Shown: positions 53,041 through 64,000 of the stretch, piece by piece | Numbering within the stretch: the first letter of the stretch is position 1 | How the letters are laid out: the number at the start of each line of letters is the position of its first letter | NCBI RefSeq assembly: GCF_019703305.1 | Contig: NZ_AP024814.1 | Location: 992,001 to 1,056,000 of the forward strand | Reading direction: 5' to 3' | Length of the DNA: 64,000 bases | Source of the DNA: Helicobacter sp. NHP19-003 | GTDB lineage: Bacteria; Campylobacterota; Campylobacteria; Campylobacterales; Helicobacteraceae | Notes under the pieces: model-generated | Databases searched by the model: none | What the model saw: only the letters and a program-made list of their open reading frames with translations | Told to the model about the DNA's origin: nothing | Made by a program: the position numbers and the translations under genes

Positions 53041-53916
53041 ATGCTAGCCCCCATTGTGCAAGCCTTGCAAGCCCTAGCCCCTAAAGTCTATCATGCCATT
53101 AAACAAGGCGACACCCACTACACCGCCCACAAAAACCCCACCGCAGATTTACAATTAGCCGTGGATGTGGCGGTGGATCATTTGATCTTTGGAGAGTTGA
53201 TGCAAACGCCCAGCGTGGGGGGCGTGATGAGCGAAGAGAGGGAGGAGGCGCATTACAAAGAAAAGGGGGATTTTTTAATCGCCTTTGACCCCTTGGATGG
53301 GTCTAGCGTGGTGGGGGCGAATTTTCTAGTGGGGAGCATTTTTGGGGTGTATGCCCGCCCGCCTTTGGGCTTTGCTGAACCGCAAATGGCTCGCCACATT
53401 AAAATGGGGGCGTATCTTCTCTATGGGGCGAAGTTAGAATTAGTCGTGGCAAATGAGGCAGGGGTGAAACACTATGTCTTTAATGAAGACAAGCAAGAGT
53501 GGCACAGCAAAAAGGATTTAACGCTTAAAGACAAGGGCAAGAACATAGCCCCCGGGGGCAGCTGGCAACACTTTAACTCCGAGTATGTGGCGTTTTTGAT
53601 GTCGTTTTTCAAGCAAGGTTACCGCTTGCGTTACAGCGGAAGCATGGTGGCCGACATACACCACTTACTCAGCAAAGAGGGGGGGTTGTTTTGCTACCCT
53701 GCCACACAAGATGCCCCTTTAGGCAAATTGCGTAAACTCTTTGAGGTCTATCCCCTAGCCTTTGTTGTAGAAAAAGCCGGGGGTCTAGGCTTTGAGGGCA
53801 CACAAGAGATTTTAAACACCCCTTTAAACAGCCTACACGATAAAAGCCCGTGTTTTCTAGGCTCAAAAGTGGAAATGGAGGCTCTCAAGCAATGGATGCT
53901 TACGAACAAAAACTAG
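53041..53916 (+). CDS. fbp: Fructose-1,6-bisphosphatase class I
   Basis: The 291-residue product has LQLAVDVAVDHLIF, the metal-site pattern MSEERE and FLIAFDPLDGSSVVGANFLVGSIFG (core FDPLDGSSVV), and RYSGSMVADIHHLLSKEGGLF. It removes the 1-phosphate in gluconeogenesis, which this amino-acid-using genus depends on. An in-frame G7 run lies at about 53679-53685. Its end overlaps the next small gene by 25 bases, as at H. pylori HP1385/HP1384. Confidence 0.96.
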   Translation: MLAPIVQALQALAPKVYHAIKQGDTHYTAHKNPTADLQLAVDVAVDHLIFGELMQTPSVGGVMSEEREEAHYKEKGDFLIAFDPLDGSSVVGANFLVGSIFGVYARPPLGFAEPQMARHIKMGAYLLYGAKLELVVANEAGVKHYVFNEDKQEWHSKKDLTLKDKGKNIAPGGSWQHFNSEYVAFLMSFFKQGYRLRYSGSMVADIHHLLSKEGGLFCYPATQDAPLGKLRKLFEVYPLAFVVEKAGGLGFEGTQEILNTPLNSLHDKSPCFLGSKVEMEALKQWMLTNKN

Positions 53917-54074
53917 ATGAATTGAAACAAAAGGTGCAGGCCTGCCAAGAACGCAAGGGCGTGGGCTCTTGCCTGCGTTGCAGTTTGACCTTAGAGTGTG
54001 TGGACAGAAAAGCCTATGTCGCCAGCGTGTATGCGAGCATGAACAAGGGAAAACAAGGCAATTTTGATTTTTAG
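53892..54074 (+). CDS. Small four-cysteine protein (HP1384-like)
   Basis: The 60-residue product MDAYEQKLDELKQKVQACQ continues with four Cys in the pattern C-x8-C-x2-C-x6-C, which could hold a metal ion, and ends SMNKGKQGNFDF. The ATG at 53892 is inside the fbp end. Conservation of the fbp neighbour in H. pylori supports it as a real gene. Function is unknown. Confidence 0.75.
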   Translation: MDAYEQKLDELKQKVQACQERKGVGSCLRCSLTLECVDRKAYVASVYASMNKGKQGNFDF

Positions 54075-54089
54075 CTAAAAGGATTTTTG

Positions 54090-54773
54090 ATGTATTTTAA
54101 GAGATTTGGGCTTGGTGTGTGGGGTTTGTGTGCGCTGGTGAGTGTGGCTGTTGCCGAGAAAAATGGCGTGTATGTGTCGGGCGGTTTACAATACACCTTA
54201 GTGAAAACCACGATTTCTAGGGGGATGTATGCCAATGAGGCACAACCTTTTGCCTTAAGCGGTTACACCCCAGGGATGAGCAACATGTATGGCTTTAGCC
54301 TCAATGCCGGCTATAAAATGTTCTTTGGCAAGCTGGAGAGGCGCAATGGGGTGCGTGTCTATGCCTTTTACGACTACGGCTACGACAACCCCAGCTTTAA
54401 TGGCCCCCGCTTGAACGACAATGTCTATGGCGTGGGGGCGGACTATCTCTTTGACTTCATAGACAAACGCCAAATGCAAGTGGGCTTTTTCATGGGATTT
54501 GCCTTTGCCGGGAGTTCGTGGAGCAACTCGGGGGCTTCTTATGTCAAAAGCCTAGCCAAATACCCCGGGGTGAGCGAGAATTTCAGCTATTTTCAAATCC
54601 CCGTCAATGTGGGCGTACGGGCAAATGTCAGCAAGCACCAAGGCTTTGAATTTGGGCTAAAGATCCCTTTAGTGCGTAATTACTACTTCCGCTCCACAGC
54701 CCCCGGGGGCATTTATGGCCTGACCTTCCAAAGAAGTGTCGTGCTGTATGGCAATTATGTTTATAATTTTTAA
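54090..54773 (+). CDS. Helicobacter outer-membrane protein (Hop/Hof-type barrel)
   Basis: The 227-residue product has a signal peptide (LGVWGLCALVSVAVAEKNG) and then the typical Helicobacter pattern GVYVSGGLQYTLVKTT, GFSLNAGYKMFFG, VRVYAFYDYGYDN, YGVGADYLFDFI, FQIPVNVGVRANVSKHQGFEFGLKIPL, shown here in pieces, with a terminal Phe (YGNYVYNF) as in barrels assembled by the Bam machine. It is short and probably an eight- to ten-stranded barrel without a large exposed domain. ATG 54090 follows AAAGGA. Confidence 0.85.
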   Translation: MYFKRFGLGVWGLCALVSVAVAEKNGVYVSGGLQYTLVKTTISRGMYANEAQPFALSGYTPGMSNMYGFSLNAGYKMFFGKLERRNGVRVYAFYDYGYDNPSFNGPRLNDNVYGVGADYLFDFIDKRQMQVGFFMGFAFAGSSWSNSGASYVKSLAKYPGVSENFSYFQIPVNVGVRANVSKHQGFEFGLKIPLVRNYYFRSTAPGGIYGLTFQRSVVLYGNYVYNF

Positions 54774-54780
54774 AAGATGC

Positions 54781-56835
54781 TTAAAATGTGGGCACATCCA
54801 CTTGTTGTTTAATGACAAGCCCCTCTCTCATGGCATTCTCATAAAGCTCATAAAGGATTTTTGCTTGTTTTTCAGAGGGAGGGTTTAAAACCCCTGTAGC
54901 CATCTTAGACAAAATATCCATTTGTTGCGTAGAAAGTTGCCCCGCCAAATCCTCTCTTTGGTAGTATGCCAAAACTTGAGGCCAATACTTGAAACCAGTA
55001 ACAAATATCCATTTTTCCATGTCTGTTGTGCGCTTTTTATCCTTTTTTGCCTCTTTGTTGATATATTTTTGCTCCTCTGCACTGGTTAAAATGCCTTCAT
55101 CGATCTCTAAATTGAAATCTATTTTTTCAATGTGCTCCCAACACAGCTTGGTTCTACACCATTGCAAGGCATTTGTGTTGCCTACTGGGGGATTTGTGAT
55201 GTGGGTATAGACATTTGGGGCGATATGGGCTAATATTTTTTGAAGGGGAGCGGACACCTTCTGCTCTTCCCAAATCTTCATAAAATTTAGAAATGATGAT
55301 CGTTGCTCCAAATAATGCGAGAGGTAGGCAAGGGTGTAAGCCACACATGGCGTTCTATACCCACTCGCATACCAGTTTGCCTGAGAAACAATTTTTTCTG
55401 TTTGTCTAAACATGATGATGCGGGCAATCGCTTCTTTAAAGTAATTTCCTGTGATGCTGAACTCATCTTTTTCGAGTGTTTCGGTGATGTGTTTTGCAAA
55501 CTTCTTAAAGCTATCTTGTGCCCCGTTAGACACAACATAGGGTGCTTGTAGCCACGCCACTTCGCTTTTAGCCAAGAGCGACTTATCCACGAGCTGAGAT
55601 TTGGGGCGTTTTTTTAAGAATTGATTTTTTTCTTTAGAGGTCAAATACATTTGTTCGGTTAAATATTCACCCCGTACGCGTTCGTAAAACCAATATGTTT
55701 TGATTTGTACGCCATCTCGAGCTGGAGCTAAAATGTTCTTAGAATACTCTTTAAAATCTCTATGAAAGGGGCTGTTTGAAAAGAAGTCGGATTTATTGAC
55801 CTTGTTTTGCGTGTTGGCGCATTCACTGACCTTAGCAACAAACGCATCTTGTTTAGACTCATTGGCAACCACAGAGAGTTTCATTTGGACATAAACTTTA
55901 GAAACATCATTTTTCTTGTTCTTGCTGGTTGCATAGATGGAGGCTATGGTTTGCCCTCCATTGACGATTTGAAAATTTGAAATCTTTTTAATCTTGCCAT
56001 TTTCCACAACAACGCCACTTGCGGTTGCCGTGATGCCATTATTGTAAGCAAAAAACATTTCAGGCTCGTATTCTATGGTGTTTCTAATCCCCTTATTAAC
56101 ATTGCCCTTAAACTGCAAAAATGTACGGATGTTCTGCTCCAAAAGCCGTGATCCGTAATCCCCGTAGATTTTTGCAAGGGTTGTGCCATCCACCACACTG
56201 AGATATGCGTTATATTCCTCTGTGGGGGTTTTGACAACCAAAACGGGTAAATTCACCTCAACTTCAAAGCCATTGCTTGAATCGTCCAGTTTATACATCC
56301 TGTATAAATACTCCATATCCCTAATGCAATGCTCGATTTCTATAGAAGACTTGGTTTCATTGGGGATCACAAGCAAGTTTTTAGTCGCTTTGCCATCGGT
56401 GATGAGGATGAGGCGCACTTTTTCAACCATGTTTTTAGAGAGGTAGGTGTAGATATTATATGCCATAGAGTGGTGCGTAAAACCCTCTTCCATAGATTCA
56501 TAAAGCTTGTTAGCCGTTTCTTTGAAAAATGTTTTGAGTTTTTTAAATTTGGAGTCGATTTGGGCTTTTGTGAGCGTTTGGAGCGTGTCGCTTTGAAAAA
56601 AACAAGACACCAGCAGACTCAGTTCTCCCCTCTCTTCATCAAACGCATAGCCACAAACCTCCATGTCTTTTTTGTTGTACTCGGCTAGCTCGCAAGATTC
56701 AGAGAGTTCGCCGTCCTTTACAAGCTCATCGCGAATCGATTCAATAAATGCTTCGTGCTTACTCATCCCACGGCTTTGGGTTTCAACCGCAACCCTTTGC
56801 ATAAAATCTTGATGAAACTCTTCTAAACTAAACAT
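54781..56835 (-). CDS. AIPR-family (abortive infection phage resistance) protein
   Basis: The 684-residue product has the AIPR core: FFAYNNGITATASG (about residues 260-273), ISNFQIVNGGQTIASIYA (about 286-303) and ECANTQNKVNKSDFFSNSPF. The N-terminal 200 residues and the C-terminal tail are family-typical but without known motifs. AIPR proteins are named for a lactococcal abortive-infection protein and recur as the last member of MORC/Z1 restriction-like operons. Its ATG (56835) overlaps the nuclease gene stop by 8 bases. It is the last gene of the cassette and meets the outer-membrane gene tail to tail with 7 bases between. Confidence 0.88.
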   Translation of the reverse strand: MFSLEEFHQDFMQRVAVETQSRGMSKHEAFIESIRDELVKDGELSESCELAEYNKKDMEVCGYAFDEERGELSLLVSCFFQSDTLQTLTKAQIDSKFKKLKTFFKETANKLYESMEEGFTHHSMAYNIYTYLSKNMVEKVRLILITDGKATKNLLVIPNETKSSIEIEHCIRDMEYLYRMYKLDDSSNGFEVEVNLPVLVVKTPTEEYNAYLSVVDGTTLAKIYGDYGSRLLEQNIRTFLQFKGNVNKGIRNTIEYEPEMFFAYNNGITATASGVVVENGKIKKISNFQIVNGGQTIASIYATSKNKKNDVSKVYVQMKLSVVANESKQDAFVAKVSECANTQNKVNKSDFFSNSPFHRDFKEYSKNILAPARDGVQIKTYWFYERVRGEYLTEQMYLTSKEKNQFLKKRPKSQLVDKSLLAKSEVAWLQAPYVVSNGAQDSFKKFAKHITETLEKDEFSITGNYFKEAIARIIMFRQTEKIVSQANWYASGYRTPCVAYTLAYLSHYLEQRSSFLNFMKIWEEQKVSAPLQKILAHIAPNVYTHITNPPVGNTNALQWCRTKLCWEHIEKIDFNLEIDEGILTSAEEQKYINKEAKKDKKRTTDMEKWIFVTGFKYWPQVLAYYQREDLAGQLSTQQMDILSKMATGVLNPPSEKQAKILYELYENAMREGLVIKQQVDVPTF

Positions 56836-57745
56836 GATTTGCCTTAAATGTGAGATCAGCCACCAAAAACTCCGTGCATTGGAGCAAATCAATGGTGTAT
56901 TTGACATTCATGATCCTTGGGTCTATGCTTGCCCTTGTGATTTTAGGAAAGGTCTCTACCACTTCATAGATAGACTTTTGCTCCACTTTAAAGCGGTGCA
57001 TTTGATCGGGGTTTGGTTGATAGCCCCACTCAAATAGTTTCGTATAGAACAATTCAACATCTGTTTTATCCTCTATACATCCCTCAATGTCTTTTGCTAA
57101 GTCTTCCACGCTGTCTCCATAGGTGCTTTGTGTAAGTGCATAGGTGGCTAAATACAATTTTTCTTTCTTGTTCTCCAATTGTTCTGCAGAAGAGATGGTC
57201 ACTTTTGGGGGTTTTGAAGAGGGGTGTGTTTTGATCTCCACAGCAAAGTGATTGAATAAGAAATCTTGTGTGTCAAATACCCAAGCATCAAGAGCCTCTT
57301 TAACCCCTAAGTATTTTACCGCTTCTTTTAAGAAGTGCAGTTCTCCAAATAAACCCATTTGTTTTTCTAATCCAAAGTCCTCTTTGCTTGCAAATAATTT
57401 TTTCCACTTTAAGAGCCGTTGCGTGATCTGTGGGGCGATATTTTGAGTGATGGCGTTGTCATCTAAAAGGACGATCAAGTCCTCACAAACAAGTTTAAAG
57501 AGCTGCCAATTCGTGTGGTTGCTAAGAGCCACATAAAATTGTGTAGAATGTTCTTGATTAACCACCTGAAAACTTAACCCCTCAAATGCAACGCTCTTAC
57601 TGGACTTTGTTTTGACAGGCACACCAATGCTTAAGAGATACCGTCCACTCTCATCCACCATCCAAAAGAGGTCGTGCGGACAATCGCTCTCAACCCGTCT
57701 TTTAGTGTTCTTTGCCATGTTCTGCCAAGGGTTATTCATCCTCAT
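56828..57745 (-). CDS. PD-(D/E)XK-motif protein (DUF4420 type)
   Basis: The 305-residue product has a nuclease-like core: GLFGELHFLKEA with Glu135, then AWVFDTQDFLFNHFAVEIKT, in which Asp161 and Glu170-x-Lys172 give the PD-(D/E)XK active-site spacing, followed by KVTISSAEQL. The family is the presumed DNA-cutting unit of Z1/MORC restriction-like systems. Its start lies inside the end of the Z1 gene (14-base overlap; a second ATG is at 57739). All catalytic residues appear intact. Confidence 0.85.
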   Translation of the reverse strand: MRMNNPWQNMAKNTKRRVESDCPHDLFWMVDESGRYLLSIGVPVKTKSSKSVAFEGLSFQVVNQEHSTQFYVALSNHTNWQLFKLVCEDLIVLLDDNAITQNIAPQITQRLLKWKKLFASKEDFGLEKQMGLFGELHFLKEAVKYLGVKEALDAWVFDTQDFLFNHFAVEIKTHPSSKPPKVTISSAEQLENKKEKLYLATYALTQSTYGDSVEDLAKDIEGCIEDKTDVELFYTKLFEWGYQPNPDQMHRFKVEQKSIYEVVETFPKITRASIDPRIMNVKYTIDLLQCTEFLVADLTFKANHV

Positions 57746-60464
57746 CCCCTCGAATGTCTTCTTCTCGTAGTGCTTGAGCCACCGTGTTAAGGGCGACTTT
57801 TTTAACTAGTTGCGATTGATCCTTAACACCTCTATAAGGAAAGCACACACCATAGGCAGGAACCAAGACTTCTTGATTGCCAAAAGGGTTTGTTTCTAAA
57901 TCGCCCTCCAATATATACATTGTAGAGATCGAGAGCATCAACACGGGATTTTCTAATTCCGCCCTTAAAGATAGGTGGTGTATGCCCCGCTGTCCTGTTT
58001 TTGTAGTTTTGGCTTGCTCTACAATCGCCCCATATTTTTCTTTATCCAATAAAATTTCTTCAGGGTCCTTTGAAATCAGTTTTCTGCGTCCGGATTTTTG
58101 TAGATGGAGGCGATTATTTTGCTTGATAACTTTGCGTTTTCCCGCTTGGATATTTATATTAAACTCTTTGAGTTTCTCTATGGGTGTGCCCCTACCGCCG
58201 TATAAGATCACATCCCAAACTTGATCTTTCTCTTCAAGATATTTTTGGATCGGCTCAATAAGTTGCCACATGCTCTCGCCATAAACAGACTTATGGGACA
58301 TTTTAAAGCAATTTACAAATTCTAAAATGCGCTGCCGATCTACACCTTTATAAAGAACTGCCTGATCTTTTCCATGGCGTTCAGTACGCAAAGAGCTAAT
58401 GGAGCGGATGAGATCAAGCAAACACTTGAGATTGTCTTCATGCTCTTGTGGTTGGTGGCTGAAATCTGCTTGCTCTCTTGAAACACCGTTTAAGTTTAGG
58501 TCTAGGGTGATGGATTTAACCTTTTTCATCTTGTTTCTAGCTGTGATTTGCAAGATATTGTTTGGATCTTGCCTAACAGCAAGTCCAAAATCTGAGGGTG
58601 TCGATCCATCTTGGGACATCTCTATAAATTTTTGCATGAGTTCATCCACGCACTCAACAATGAAGGCAAAGTTCTCCCGAGTCTCTTGGGGCATGTAAAT
58701 CTTACATAAGTCTTTATAGCCCTCTCTATAACCAAACCAACGCCCCATTTGCATGAGGGTGTCGTAACAAGTGGAGTTGCGGACAAAATAACTCACACTC
58801 AAACCCTCTAGGGTGAATCCACGCGCTAAGCTTAAACCCCCCACAGCAATAATATTCTTATCTTCTTTGTAGTTGATGGGGTGTTTAGTTTTTTGATGGA
58901 TGGCTTTAACAATAAGAGCGGAACCCTCGCTAATGGTGCAAGACAACTTTTCTAAAACTTCTTGCCAAGAGTATCTAATCTTAGGATTATGTTTTTTGAT
59001 TTGGCTAAACACTTCTTGCATAGTGGCGATCAAAACACTCTGTCTTTCGGGGTTTTGGAGCTTAGCATAAGCTAAGATATCCTGCTTAAGCCCATCAATA
59101 TGATCTGCGATCCGGGCATCTATGCGTTTATGCATGTCTGTAAAACGACTCACATTGACTAGCATGCTATTGCACTTATTTTCATATCCACTCAAATGTC
59201 TAATGGCAATATTGATACAGAAAACATGGATTGCTTCTAATAAACTTTTTGGCAATGCTTCAACTTGATGTTCTTTATTGTGTTTTAGGGGAAACGCCTC
59301 GTCATGGTCTTGGATATCCACTAGATATTGTTCTGGATTGTCTATAAAGATTTCTTGCGCTCCGCAATAATTGCTAGGGGTATCGAGAGCATAGATAAAA
59401 TCATTGGGGAATAAATCCCCTTCCACCCTATGATCAATAAAGATATTGGCAAAAGGTGTGGCGGTGTAGGCAACATAAGTACTTTTTTCAAAGAGTTTTA
59501 AAAGATCCCTAATTTCTTTATTGATAGTGGTCGGATCTTCATCGGTCTTTGTGTTGATCGATCCCCAATCCGATTCATCGTCAATGAGTAACATGGCATG
59601 TTTGGCGATGCTATTCTTATAATGGCTTTTGAGCCATTGAATAACGCTAGAAATTGTAGTCGTATTCTTTTTGATCACTAAAAGAAAAGAGGTGTTTGTG
59701 TTGTCTAAATTAAGTCCTTGGGAATTCTTTTGGGCATCTTTTTGTTTAAAATCATCCTTTTCTGTTGTAAGACTAATGGGTTGTTTTTCTCGACTTGGAG
59801 CGATCAAGCCCACCCCCACATCTTCCCCCCTATCGTTTTTGCCAACAAACATCTCATTGATCCGCACCTGTGTTTGGTTTCTCAATATATTTGTATTGCC
59901 TGCCATGACAACAATGAACTTATAGCCTGCATCCACCGCCTTTGTGATTAAAGAGCCGTAGTTTGTGGTTTTACCCGATTGCACATGCCCGACCACCATG
60001 CCAAAAATGCTAAACCTCTCCTCTTGTTTAGGATTGCCAAGCTGGTTTAAAATTGAATCTGTATCTTCACCAACTGCTCTAATCACTTCTAGGGGAAACC
60101 CTTTCTTTTCTCCCAAAAACTTTCTTAATCTATTCCAATAAAATCGATCGGGATTGCCTTTTAAACTCTTACGATACCACTCTGTATCGCGTTCTTGTTG
60201 TTCTTTCCCTTGGATGACTGAGCCTAAATCCATTTTGACATCAAAATGTTTTTCTAGTTCTTTTTCCAACTTGTCGTAGTCCTCTTCTGTAAAATCCCCA
60301 CTGCAACCAAATACTTGTTCTTTAACAGGTGAATCAATGATTGCTTTTGCCTTCTGCACGGCACTAGGAATGTCTGTCTTTTCAAGCATTCCACCATGCT
60401 CTTCATAGATTTCAGCAAGTCCCCTTCTTGCAAATTCAAAAACATTTTCGTAAAAACTTTTCAT
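57732..60464 (-). CDS. Z1-domain superfamily 2 ATPase
   Basis: The 910-residue product has a Walker A loop VVGHVQSGKTTNYGS (residues 157-171), Walker B LLIDDESDWGSINT (292-305), a motif III AYTATPFANIFID (332-344), GGLSLARGFTLEGLSVSYF (552-570) and the arginine-finger motif MQMGRWFGYREGY (571-583), the layout of the Z1 family of restriction-like helicases. It would use ATP to move on or remodel DNA for the neighbouring nuclease. It is 10 bases downstream of the GHKL ATPase gene and overlaps the nuclease gene. Confidence 0.92.
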   Translation of the reverse strand: MKSFYENVFEFARRGLAEIYEEHGGMLEKTDIPSAVQKAKAIIDSPVKEQVFGCSGDFTEEDYDKLEKELEKHFDVKMDLGSVIQGKEQQERDTEWYRKSLKGNPDRFYWNRLRKFLGEKKGFPLEVIRAVGEDTDSILNQLGNPKQEERFSIFGMVVGHVQSGKTTNYGSLITKAVDAGYKFIVVMAGNTNILRNQTQVRINEMFVGKNDRGEDVGVGLIAPSREKQPISLTTEKDDFKQKDAQKNSQGLNLDNTNTSFLLVIKKNTTTISSVIQWLKSHYKNSIAKHAMLLIDDESDWGSINTKTDEDPTTINKEIRDLLKLFEKSTYVAYTATPFANIFIDHRVEGDLFPNDFIYALDTPSNYCGAQEIFIDNPEQYLVDIQDHDEAFPLKHNKEHQVEALPKSLLEAIHVFCINIAIRHLSGYENKCNSMLVNVSRFTDMHKRIDARIADHIDGLKQDILAYAKLQNPERQSVLIATMQEVFSQIKKHNPKIRYSWQEVLEKLSCTISEGSALIVKAIHQKTKHPINYKEDKNIIAVGGLSLARGFTLEGLSVSYFVRNSTCYDTLMQMGRWFGYREGYKDLCKIYMPQETRENFAFIVECVDELMQKFIEMSQDGSTPSDFGLAVRQDPNNILQITARNKMKKVKSITLDLNLNGVSREQADFSHQPQEHEDNLKCLLDLIRSISSLRTERHGKDQAVLYKGVDRQRILEFVNCFKMSHKSVYGESMWQLIEPIQKYLEEKDQVWDVILYGGRGTPIEKLKEFNINIQAGKRKVIKQNNRLHLQKSGRRKLISKDPEEILLDKEKYGAIVEQAKTTKTGQRGIHHLSLRAELENPVLMLSISTMYILEGDLETNPFGNQEVLVPAYGVCFPYRGVKDQSQLVKKVALNTVAQALREEDIRGDEDE

Positions 60465-60474
60465 AATAACTCCT

Positions 60475-61869
60475 TTATTTTCGTTTTTTAAAGCCCTCGA
60501 TGTGGGCGATTTCCTCTGGGCTCAACCCCAATTTTTCAGCCCATTCTAGCATTTCTTTTCTTTCAGTTTCAGAAATAGTGTCTTCTTGCAAAAAAGCGTG
60601 GGGGTTTTGTTGTACTTGGATTTGGATCGCCTCTATGGGGAGATAGGCTTGGAGCGATTTGAGATAGAGATTTAAAAGTTTCTTTTGCGAATCGTCCAAT
60701 GCATCTATGAGGTTTTTATAAAAAGGATGATCTTTGTTGATCGCAAAGTGCATTGGAGGATTTGCACGCATAAGGTCCCAAAATCTCACCACATTTTTAT
60801 CCCCAATCTTGCGCCCACGCACAGAAAAAGGCTTTTTGCCATCTTCCATAGCTTTTGATGCGATCCGCTTGAGTTGTTCCTTGATCCCTGCAAGCGGATT
60901 TGCCATAGACTTTTTAACATCTATCCTCCAAAGCGCGTCTTGATCGTTCGAGATTTCAATTTTAATGCGCACAAGTTTAGTTGCCTCGCTTGCCTTAAAA
61001 AGCCCCCACCATTTCCCATAAACGAGCAATCTATGTGCCCGATACAAATAAAACCCTTGGGATTTGACATAGCCATCTCTGCCCCCATACTTCTCCCACT
61101 CCACTTGAGAAACCTTAGAATGGTGGGGTAGAATAAAGGGGGTAACCTCGATCCGCTTTCCATTGTAGGGAATGATCTCTGGCCCTTTATCAAAGGTCGC
61201 TGGGTGATCGGGGTTAAACGGGTTAAAGGGTTTTATGGGGGTGTTGTTGATAAATATTTTGAGTTTCTTTGGGAGGCAAGTCCCCTCTAAGAATTGGTGA
61301 AATACAAGGGATAAATGTTCTCTTAATGTTTGCAAATGGCTAGTGATTTGATCGACTTTGTCTATCTCTTCCCAAATGACAAGAGTAGCAGTTGCATATT
61401 GGTTGAAGTCGTGGAAAATCTCTAGTTGTTTGTAGTCCTCTAAATCAGGGGTGAGTAAATACCAGTCATTGCGCCGACACATATAATCCAAATCCCATTG
61501 CTTGGCATAAATGTTGTCATCTTGCTTGGATAGAACTGTGAGCTTTTTGCATTGCGAAAAAGAAGCTGACTTTAAACCAAGTCCAAATTTACCAAGTGCC
61601 GTCGGTTCTCTTAGCATGTTTGGATCTTTTGATCCCATCCGCATAGCTTCTTTAAGCTCGTTTTCGCTCATCCCCGAGCCATTGTCTAAAACACAAAATA
61701 AGGGTTTGGGGTTTTGAATCGCATAAATCTTGACAACATCTGCCCCTGCCGAAATGCTATTGTCTATAATGTCCGCAACCGCCACCTCAAACGAATAGCC
61801 GATCTCACGAAAGGACTTGATGTAATTCACGAAATTGGGTTCTAAAATTTCTGCCTTAGGCTCTTGCAT
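60475..61869 (-). CDS. GHKL ATPase, MutL/MORC-like
   Basis: The 464-residue product has the Bergerat ATP fold: N-box VADIIDNSISAGA (residues 31-43), G1 LDNGSGMSE (61-69), and G2 LGKFGLGLKSASFS (92-105), followed by an S5-like middle domain and a C-terminal tail ending EIAHIEGFKKRK. No MutL-type endonuclease motif or HATPase kinase partner domain is seen. The family acts as an ATP-driven clamp; MORC-like members head prokaryotic restriction-like operons. The ATG at 61869 is preferred to a TTG at 61884 because it follows AGGGG. It is the first gene of the cassette. Confidence 0.9.
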   Translation of the reverse strand: MQEPKAEILEPNFVNYIKSFREIGYSFEVAVADIIDNSISAGADVVKIYAIQNPKPLFCVLDNGSGMSENELKEAMRMGSKDPNMLREPTALGKFGLGLKSASFSQCKKLTVLSKQDDNIYAKQWDLDYMCRRNDWYLLTPDLEDYKQLEIFHDFNQYATATLVIWEEIDKVDQITSHLQTLREHLSLVFHQFLEGTCLPKKLKIFINNTPIKPFNPFNPDHPATFDKGPEIIPYNGKRIEVTPFILPHHSKVSQVEWEKYGGRDGYVKSQGFYLYRAHRLLVYGKWWGLFKASEATKLVRIKIEISNDQDALWRIDVKKSMANPLAGIKEQLKRIASKAMEDGKKPFSVRGRKIGDKNVVRFWDLMRANPPMHFAINKDHPFYKNLIDALDDSQKKLLNLYLKSLQAYLPIEAIQIQVQQNPHAFLQEDTISETERKEMLEWAEKLGLSPEEIAHIEGFKKRK

Positions 61870-62130
61870 GAAACCCCTAACCAAGCATATTTGTCATCAA
61901 AACGCCCAATGGTAGCTGGCTTTCACTTGAAAACAAATAAAAATAAAAGAGGGCTTATAGGTTACTACATATTATTAAGCACCACTAGGGTAAAACTTCA
62001 TAAGATTTCAAAACTAAAATAGCCTAAAGCAAGAAACGCAAAGCGTTTTATTGGGATTTCTTAGCGCAAATCCCGCGGATCAAACAAATCTTATAGATCG
62101 ATTAAATCCCGTGGATTTGCCTTTAAAAAA
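61870..62130. other. Non-coding boundary between nrdA and the defence cassette
   Basis: About 260 bases hold no gene and, in particular, no trace of a methyltransferase. The cassette-proximal half is AT-rich and carries a -10-like TATAAG on the cassette strand (61959-61954), about 85 bases before the first start. The nrdA-proximal half holds several dyads, listed separately. Confidence 0.5.
62034..62118. repeat. Cluster of short inverted and direct repeats downstream of nrdA
   Basis: AAACGC-AAA-GCGTTT (62034-62048), GGGATTT/AAATCCC (62053-62074), and AAATCC-CGT-GGATTT (62104-62118) form three hairpins. AAATCCCG(C/T)GGAT occurs twice in direct order (62068-62080, 62104-62116). They follow the nrdA stop and may end its transcript, though none has a T-run, or mark the edge of the inserted cassette. 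Confidence 0.55.
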
Positions 62131-64000
62131 TCACTGGCAATGGTGGCATTCGATGGAGCGGTCGAAAACGCCTTTTTCTTCTAAGTGGGGGCTTTGGGTG
62201 CGTAGGTAGTAGGTGGATTTTAGCCCAAGCTTCCACGCTAGATGGTAGATTTCGTGCAAGAGTTTGCCATTGGCTTTATCGGGGCGTAAAAAGAGATTTA
62301 AACTCTGCCCTTGGTCGATCCACTTTTGGCGTACGGCGGCTAGGCGGACAATGTTTTTAGGGTCAATGTCGTAAGCAGAAGTGTAGTAATTCCAAGTCTC
62401 AAGGCTCAAGTTTGGCACGACTACGGGGATCATGCCGCTTAAATTCTCTTCAAACCATTTCTTTTGGTAAATGGGCTCAATGGTTTGGGTCGTGCCGACT
62501 AAAATAGAGATCGAGCTGGTGGGCGCAACCGCCATTAAATAGCCATTTCTAAGACCCTGTTTTTGCACCTGTGCTTTGAGGCCATCCCAATCGCAAGTGG
62601 GCTGACGGGGGGCGATCTCTAGGGCTTCTTTTTTGGCTCTATCCACGGGGAAAACGCCCTTGCTCCACGCCGAGCCTGCAAAGTGGGCGTAGCTGCCCCG
62701 CTCTTTAGCTAGATCACTGCTTGCCTTGATCGTTTCAAAACTGATTTTCTCCATTAAAGCGTCTATTTTAATGGCGTGCTCCACGCTCCCCCATACAATT
62801 TGGGCTTGGGCGAGCATTTGCGCCTCGCCCATCACACCTAGCCCGATCGCCCGACTTTTTAGGTTTGTCTTTTTAGCTTTAGCGGTGGGGTAGAAGTTTA
62901 GATCGATCACATTATCCAGCATACGCACGGCAATGGGCACGACCCGCTCAATGTCTGCTGGGGTGTGGATTTTGCTTAAATTCAAGCTGGCTAGATTACA
63001 CACGGCAAGCGTGCCCTCTTCGGGGACTTTGGTCGCCATGAAGATTTTTTGCCCGTTGATCGAGTCGTTGCTGGTGAGTTTGTTTGCCCTCTTTTCAATG
63101 CCCGCATCGGTGCAAATACGCTCTTCTTCCTCAAAATACGCCCTCTTGCCATCGACAAAATCCACTTGCATTTTGTAGTGGCTGGAGCGGGTGTTTTGGT
63201 AAATCTCGGTGCAAAGGTTAGACGAGCGGATCATGCCGGCGTGGGCGTTGGGGTTGGCGTGGTTGGCGTTGTCCTTAAAGCCTAAAAAGGGCAAACCGCT
63301 CTCAAAGTAGTTGGTTAAAATCTTTTTCCACAGCGTACGGGCACTGACTTTTTCTTTGCTGATATGGGGGTTTTGCTCGTAGGCAAGGTAACGTTTTTTA
63401 AACTCTTCTCCATAGTGTTCGGTCAAATCTTTGCACACATAGGGGTCAAAGAGCGTCCAAACTTCGTCCTTTTCCACCCGCTCCATAAATAGATCGCAAA
63501 TCCACAGGGCTGGGAAGAGATCGTGGGCACGGCGGCGTTCATCGCCGCTGTTTTTGCGTAAGTCAATGAACTCCAAAACATCCATGTGCCAAATCTCTAA
63601 ATACACAGAGATCGCCCCCTTACGGGTGCCGAGTTGATCTACGGCGATCGCCACATCATTGACGATCTTTAAGAAAGGGATCACCCCTGCACTGGCACTT
63701 TTATGCCCGTCAATGTAACTGCCTAAACAACGCACTTGGCTAAAGTCCCAGCCGATCCCCCCGCCATATTTGGAGAGTAAAGCCATGTCCTTGTAGCTGT
63801 CAAAAATCCCCTCTATGTTGTCAGGGGTCGAGCCCACATAGCAAGAGCTGAGTTGGTGGTTTGGGGTGCGTGCATTGGAGAGTGTGGGTGTGGCACACAT
63901 CATTTCAAAGCGGCTTAAAACCCCGTAAAACTCTAGGGCTTTGGCATTGGGATCGCTCTCATTTTGTGCCAAGAACATGGCGATTGCCATGAACATGTGC
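62131..64000 (-). CDS. nrdA: Ribonucleoside-diphosphate reductase alpha subunit (C-terminal part)
   Basis: About 620 C-terminal residues are in the window; the start lies beyond the right edge. It has ATPTLSNARTPNHQLSSCYV, LLSKYGGGIGWDFSQVR, SNLCTEIYQNTRSSHYK, LAVCNLASLNLSKI and APTSSISILVGTTQTIEPI, the conserved barrel and radical-site motifs of class Ia enzymes. It ends SIECHHCQ, whose Cys pair would be the swinging thiols that re-reduce the active site. It makes deoxyribonucleotides with NrdB. It corresponds to H. pylori HP0680. Confidence 0.96.
   Translation of the reverse strand, partial: HMFMAIAMFLAQNESDPNAKALEFYGVLSRFEMMCATPTLSNARTPNHQLSSCYVGSTPDNIEGIFDSYKDMALLSKYGGGIGWDFSQVRCLGSYIDGHKSASAGVIPFLKIVNDVAIAVDQLGTRKGAISVYLEIWHMDVLEFIDLRKNSGDERRRAHDLFPALWICDLFMERVEKDEVWTLFDPYVCKDLTEHYGEEFKKRYLAYEQNPHISKEKVSARTLWKKILTNYFESGLPFLGFKDNANHANPNAHAGMIRSSNLCTEIYQNTRSSHYKMQVDFVDGKRAYFEEEERICTDAGIEKRANKLTSNDSINGQKIFMATKVPEEGTLAVCNLASLNLSKIHTPADIERVVPIAVRMLDNVIDLNFYPTAKAKKTNLKSRAIGLGVMGEAQMLAQAQIVWGSVEHAIKIDALMEKISFETIKASSDLAKERGSYAHFAGSAWSKGVFPVDRAKKEALEIAPRQPTCDWDGLKAQVQKQGLRNGYLMAVAPTSSISILVGTTQTIEPIYQKKWFEENLSGMIPVVVPNLSLETWNYYTSAYDIDPKNIVRLAAVRQKWIDQGQSLNLFLRPDKANGKLLHEIYHLAWKLGLKSTYYLRTQSPHLEEKGVFDRSIECHHCQ

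Follow-up and report, generated by a model that had tools for sequence, protein, structure and literature searches.

How a restriction-like operon can be carried without a methylase beside it is the question raised by positions 54781-61869 of the window, the whole stretch of 64,000 nucleotides of Helicobacter sp. NHP19-003 DNA that was analysed. The answer favoured here, with moderate confidence, is that the window carries an MZA-like ('type II') operon, of the kind composed of C5 methylase, GHKL, Z1, DUF4420 and AIPR genes, in which the methylase is missing either by loss or by incomplete transfer.

Reading of the open frames identified four intact minus-strand genes, running leftward in the order MzaB-, MzaC-, MzaD- and MzaE-like (Table 1). 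The first two are separated by a 10-bp gap, and the following junctions are overlaps of 14 and 8 bp. For mzaB an alternative start is possible at TTG 61884, and the frame of mzaE is open from ATG 56907, the start conserved in the alignment being 56835. The 5' neighbour of mzaB is nrdA (Ribonuc_red_lgC 3.8e-174), 261 bp away, and the 3' neighbour of mzaE is an HP_OMP (outer-membrane protein) gene, 7 bp away; both distances are as given in the first-pass annotation. Because these two flanks leave no space for it, the sigma factor gene mzaA is absent from the operon at this locus. Open reading frames, Pfam and alignments also agree with the earlier description of four overlapping or nearly touching leftward genes with intact ATPase, helicase-like and nuclease motifs. 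Its assignment to the GHKL/Z1/PD-(D/E)XK/AIPR restriction-like family of Iyer, with the methylase missing, was correct, the modern name being MZA-like.

Table 1. Genes of the operon and the gap upstream of it, in positions of the window.
Feature	Position	Strand	Length	Family match or remark
MzaB-like GHKL (MORC/MutL-type) ATPase	60475..61869	-	464 aa	HATPase_c_3 4.4e-36
MzaC-like Z1-domain SF2 motor	57732..60464	-	910 aa	Z1 1.6e-69
MzaD-like DUF4420 PD-(D/E)XK nuclease	56828..57745	-	305 aa	DUF4420 3.9e-60
MzaE-like AIPR protein	54781..56835	-	684 aa	AIPR 1.4e-95, AIPR_N 3.7e-33
Gap mzaB-nrdA	61870..62130	-	261 bp	C5 methylase site in nearest relatives

Domains were assigned by Pfam and system names by PADLOC and NCBIfam. 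PADLOC, which had been proposed as a check, names the four products MzaB, MzaC, MzaD and MzaE (2.1e-72 for MzaB), and so does NCBIfam. None of the four reached the NCBIfam equivalog cut-off, the scores being all well under it (bits/cut-off: MzaB 296/850, MzaC 431/1500, MzaD 88.5/420, MzaE 266/1050). In alignments of 9 to 11 sequences the GHKL motifs of MzaB (DNS, DNGxGM and GxGLK) are intact, as are the motifs of MzaC (Walker A GKT 164-166, DDE 295-297, TATP 334-337 and QMGRWFGYR 572-580). Residues D161, E170 and K172 of MzaD are present and invariant in all ten aligned sequences. The MzaB profile matches the solved ATPase domains of MORC2 and MORC3, and the best PDB match of the MzaC AlphaFold model was the HsdR motor of EcoR124I (E 2.7e-7). 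The model of MzaE (AIPR) found nothing better than E 0.5 in the PDB, where the sequence profiles of MzaC, MzaD and MzaE had no matches. By homology, MzaB would act as an ATP-gated clamp that gates the complex, MzaC as a DNA translocase like those of type I restriction, MzaD as the nuclease making the cut, and MzaE as an auxiliary or abortive effector, assisting or halting the cell. We infer these biochemical roles, as well as the present activity of the operon, from the sequence.

Outside the genus, the closest intact relatives, with 60-66% identity in MzaB and MzaE, all carry a C5 methylase (PF00145, 4.7e-86) that overlaps or touches the start of mzaB. In the order-level relatives L045-L050 it lies directly upstream of mzaB and overlaps its start, and the arrangement is alike in a Campylobacter MAG (L058). 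In more distant operons the methylase is found either upstream or downstream, and some of them include Vsr. Among the 58 related operons flanked by 3 kb or more on each side, a C5 methylase is present within 3 kb in 54 and within 300 bp in 45. The four exceptions are L053, with a C5 methylase about 4 kb off (L162), and L064, L088 and L099, which have none linked.

No methylase gene is present among the four frames of the window operon. In the 261-bp gap that precedes mzaB, too, tblastn detected no methylase remnant, and at the nucleotide level the gap aligned no better than shuffled sequences did. Around the mzaB start codon the gap shows a short likeness to L058, which is too weak to use, and a terminator-like stem at 62048-62034 is at chance level. 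Because no upstream remnant was found, deletion and a transfer that left the methylase behind are equally possible.

In genomes G002, G011 and G012, the FBP-OMP block (window 53041-54773) and the nrdA side (62131-63996) are not neighbours, being far apart or on different contigs, and the operon therefore lies at a rearrangement joint. A single empty site between the OMP gene and nrdA was dismissed, as both flanks are separated in these three genomes.

In the ancestral operon the methylase would have marked host sites as self, and it presumably does so in the related operons, because the methylase of a Prevotella AIPR/Z1 operon is active at GCWGC. The cell lives although its nuclease looks intact and the methylase is absent, which leaves three states for the remaining core: inactivity, activity only upon infection, or a need for the subunit that was lost. 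The first-pass annotation had named, as evidence against an independent methylase-free system, a cognate methylase linked in other strains and deleted here together with loss of activity. The linkage was borne out, in relatives of other genera; loss of activity would make the operon a relic, in which activity required the methylase (e.g. for recognition, as a subunit) or its loss went along with silencing of the core, and which is decaying like the other Helicobacter copies. This is a possible outcome, and a less probable one than the reading favoured here.

The proposed comparison with other Helicobacter genomes did yield homologous operons, but where the full operon occurs in them it has decayed. 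Frameshifts or truncations mark the copies of G002 and G013, G010 (Helicobacter sp. NHP21005, from cat) retains only mzaC plus scraps, and the 5' part of mzaB is gone from the decayed copies. In the window operon, departures from near-invariant positions number 9 of 133 in MzaC and 5 of 89 in MzaE, which is above most relatives and could be early relaxation. Both the decay of the other copies and these raised departures agree with a relic; against it speak the four open frames, the intact motifs, the mostly conservative nature of the departures, and dN/dS values well below one. In comparisons with the decayed G013 and G002 copies, dN/dS was 0.09-0.35 for mzaB, mzaD and mzaE (dS 0.31-0.88) and 0.21-0.23 for mzaC, while the yardstick genes FBP and OMP gave about 0.10 against G002. 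Purifying selection has thus acted on the operon genes at some point within the genus, and the loss of the methylase may postdate it, as dN/dS gives no date. Open mzaC genes without intact partners were also observed in three Helicobacter genomes (L015:2093-4717, L017:8505-10586 and L018:9817-12090), and G030 has a second, decayed mzaC copy (L021:8760-10795).

The mzaC gene of G013 (L016:8127-10793) is only 45% identical to that of the window, whereas the flanking mzaB, mzaD and mzaE stretches are ca. 77-94% identical. At the DNA level the identity is approximately 0.8-0.97 over the end of mzaB, mzaD and most of mzaE and approximately 0.6 over mzaC, with the switch near the gene ends, and the protein path lengths are in line with this (MzaE 0.21, MzaC 1.44). 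The pattern is best explained by exchange of mzaC as a whole gene between the two Helicobacter copies. Such a replacement suggests that changing selection acts on the Z1 protein in particular. An mzaC allele of the G013 type is located on plasmid pNHP21005_2 of G010, where it adjoins a HaeIII-type restriction-modification pair.

For the core itself we slightly favour limitation to an infection-specific DNA state: it would act only on DNA in that state and so tolerate unmethylated host DNA. That the complex has indeed stayed active by this means after the loss of the methylase, MzaC serving as a swappable module for recognition, is a speculative extension that we consider rather unlikely.

The MzaE tree comprised 83 rows, the window among them, and the three loci without a linked methylase require three separate changes on it. 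The window was left unlabelled in this count, its right flank being shorter than 3 kb; by inspection of the tree it is a fourth separate methylase-less tip. Together with the decayed G013 copy it clusters with the methylase-linked L045-L047 and L058 with full support. Since the methylase-less copies are scattered tips and the nearest intact kin are methylase-linked, the window is read as gene loss on a recent branch and not as a methylase-free lineage. An independent lineage that never used a methylase, the methylase-free branch of the first-pass annotation, would find some support in L064, L088 and L099 and in the published MZA system, for which the description consulted gives a sigma factor and no methylase; it is largely refuted by the nesting of the window among methylase-linked operons, by the absence of any methylase-less clade and by the 54 of 58 loci with a C5 methylase, and retains very little probability. 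Intact copies with no methylase offer a natural test of what the methylase is for: protecting self, recognising the target, or neither.

The assembly of the genome is 99.9% complete and consists of 5 contigs. The search for an orphan C5 methylase and a Vsr gene, also proposed earlier, detected neither a Vsr gene nor an intact C5 methylase anywhere in the genome, the sole C5 match being a C-terminal fragment of 95 positions and of another type (region C1:398034-400524; L022:8035-10525). The methylases of the nearest relatives, used as queries, had no match in the genome; as they do not match this fragment either, it was excluded as the cognate methylase. Near the fragment lies a gene whose domains are EcoRI-type adenine methylase, T5orf172 and MUG113. 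Protection of self by an unlinked methylase, i.e. the distant methylase suggested earlier, could draw on the several N6/N4-type methylase genes of the genome, but nothing links these to the operon and the linked partner in the relatives is of the C5 type, so that this explanation is highly improbable.

Several known systems resemble the preferred reading of an MZA-like operon with a missing methylase. Restriction-like operons of MORC and paraMORC proteins (Iyer 2008, PMC2292703) likewise join a GHKL ATPase to genes for a helicase and a nuclease of the restriction fold, and AIPR is common in them, but their neighbourhoods frequently include DNA methylase and Vsr genes, both missing in the window. 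The operon of M.Pin25611FIII in Prevotella intermedia (PMC5608340) shares the AIPR and Z1 genes, and differs in having its own C5 methylase, active at GCWGC, and a control protein. The MZA system (Gao 2020), mzaABCDE, is described in PMC9523054 with a sigma factor and without a methylase being listed there. Homologues of its MzaB-C-D-E are adjacent in identical order in the window, with NCBIfam matches of 88 to 431 bits that are far under the equivalog cut-offs; the window operon differs in that the mzaA sigma factor is not beside it and in that its close kin carry a C5 methylase. The putative 'type II' Z1/DUF4420/C5-methylase/AIPR/MORC defence system of the same paper has the C5 methylase as a core gene. 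The Z1, DUF4420, AIPR and MORC-type genes are common to it and the window, and the nearest kin have the identical gene set, whereas the linked core methylase is missing in the window. Judged by sequence, the gene set is thus an already known one, the MZA or 'type II' set minus mzaA and minus the methylase.
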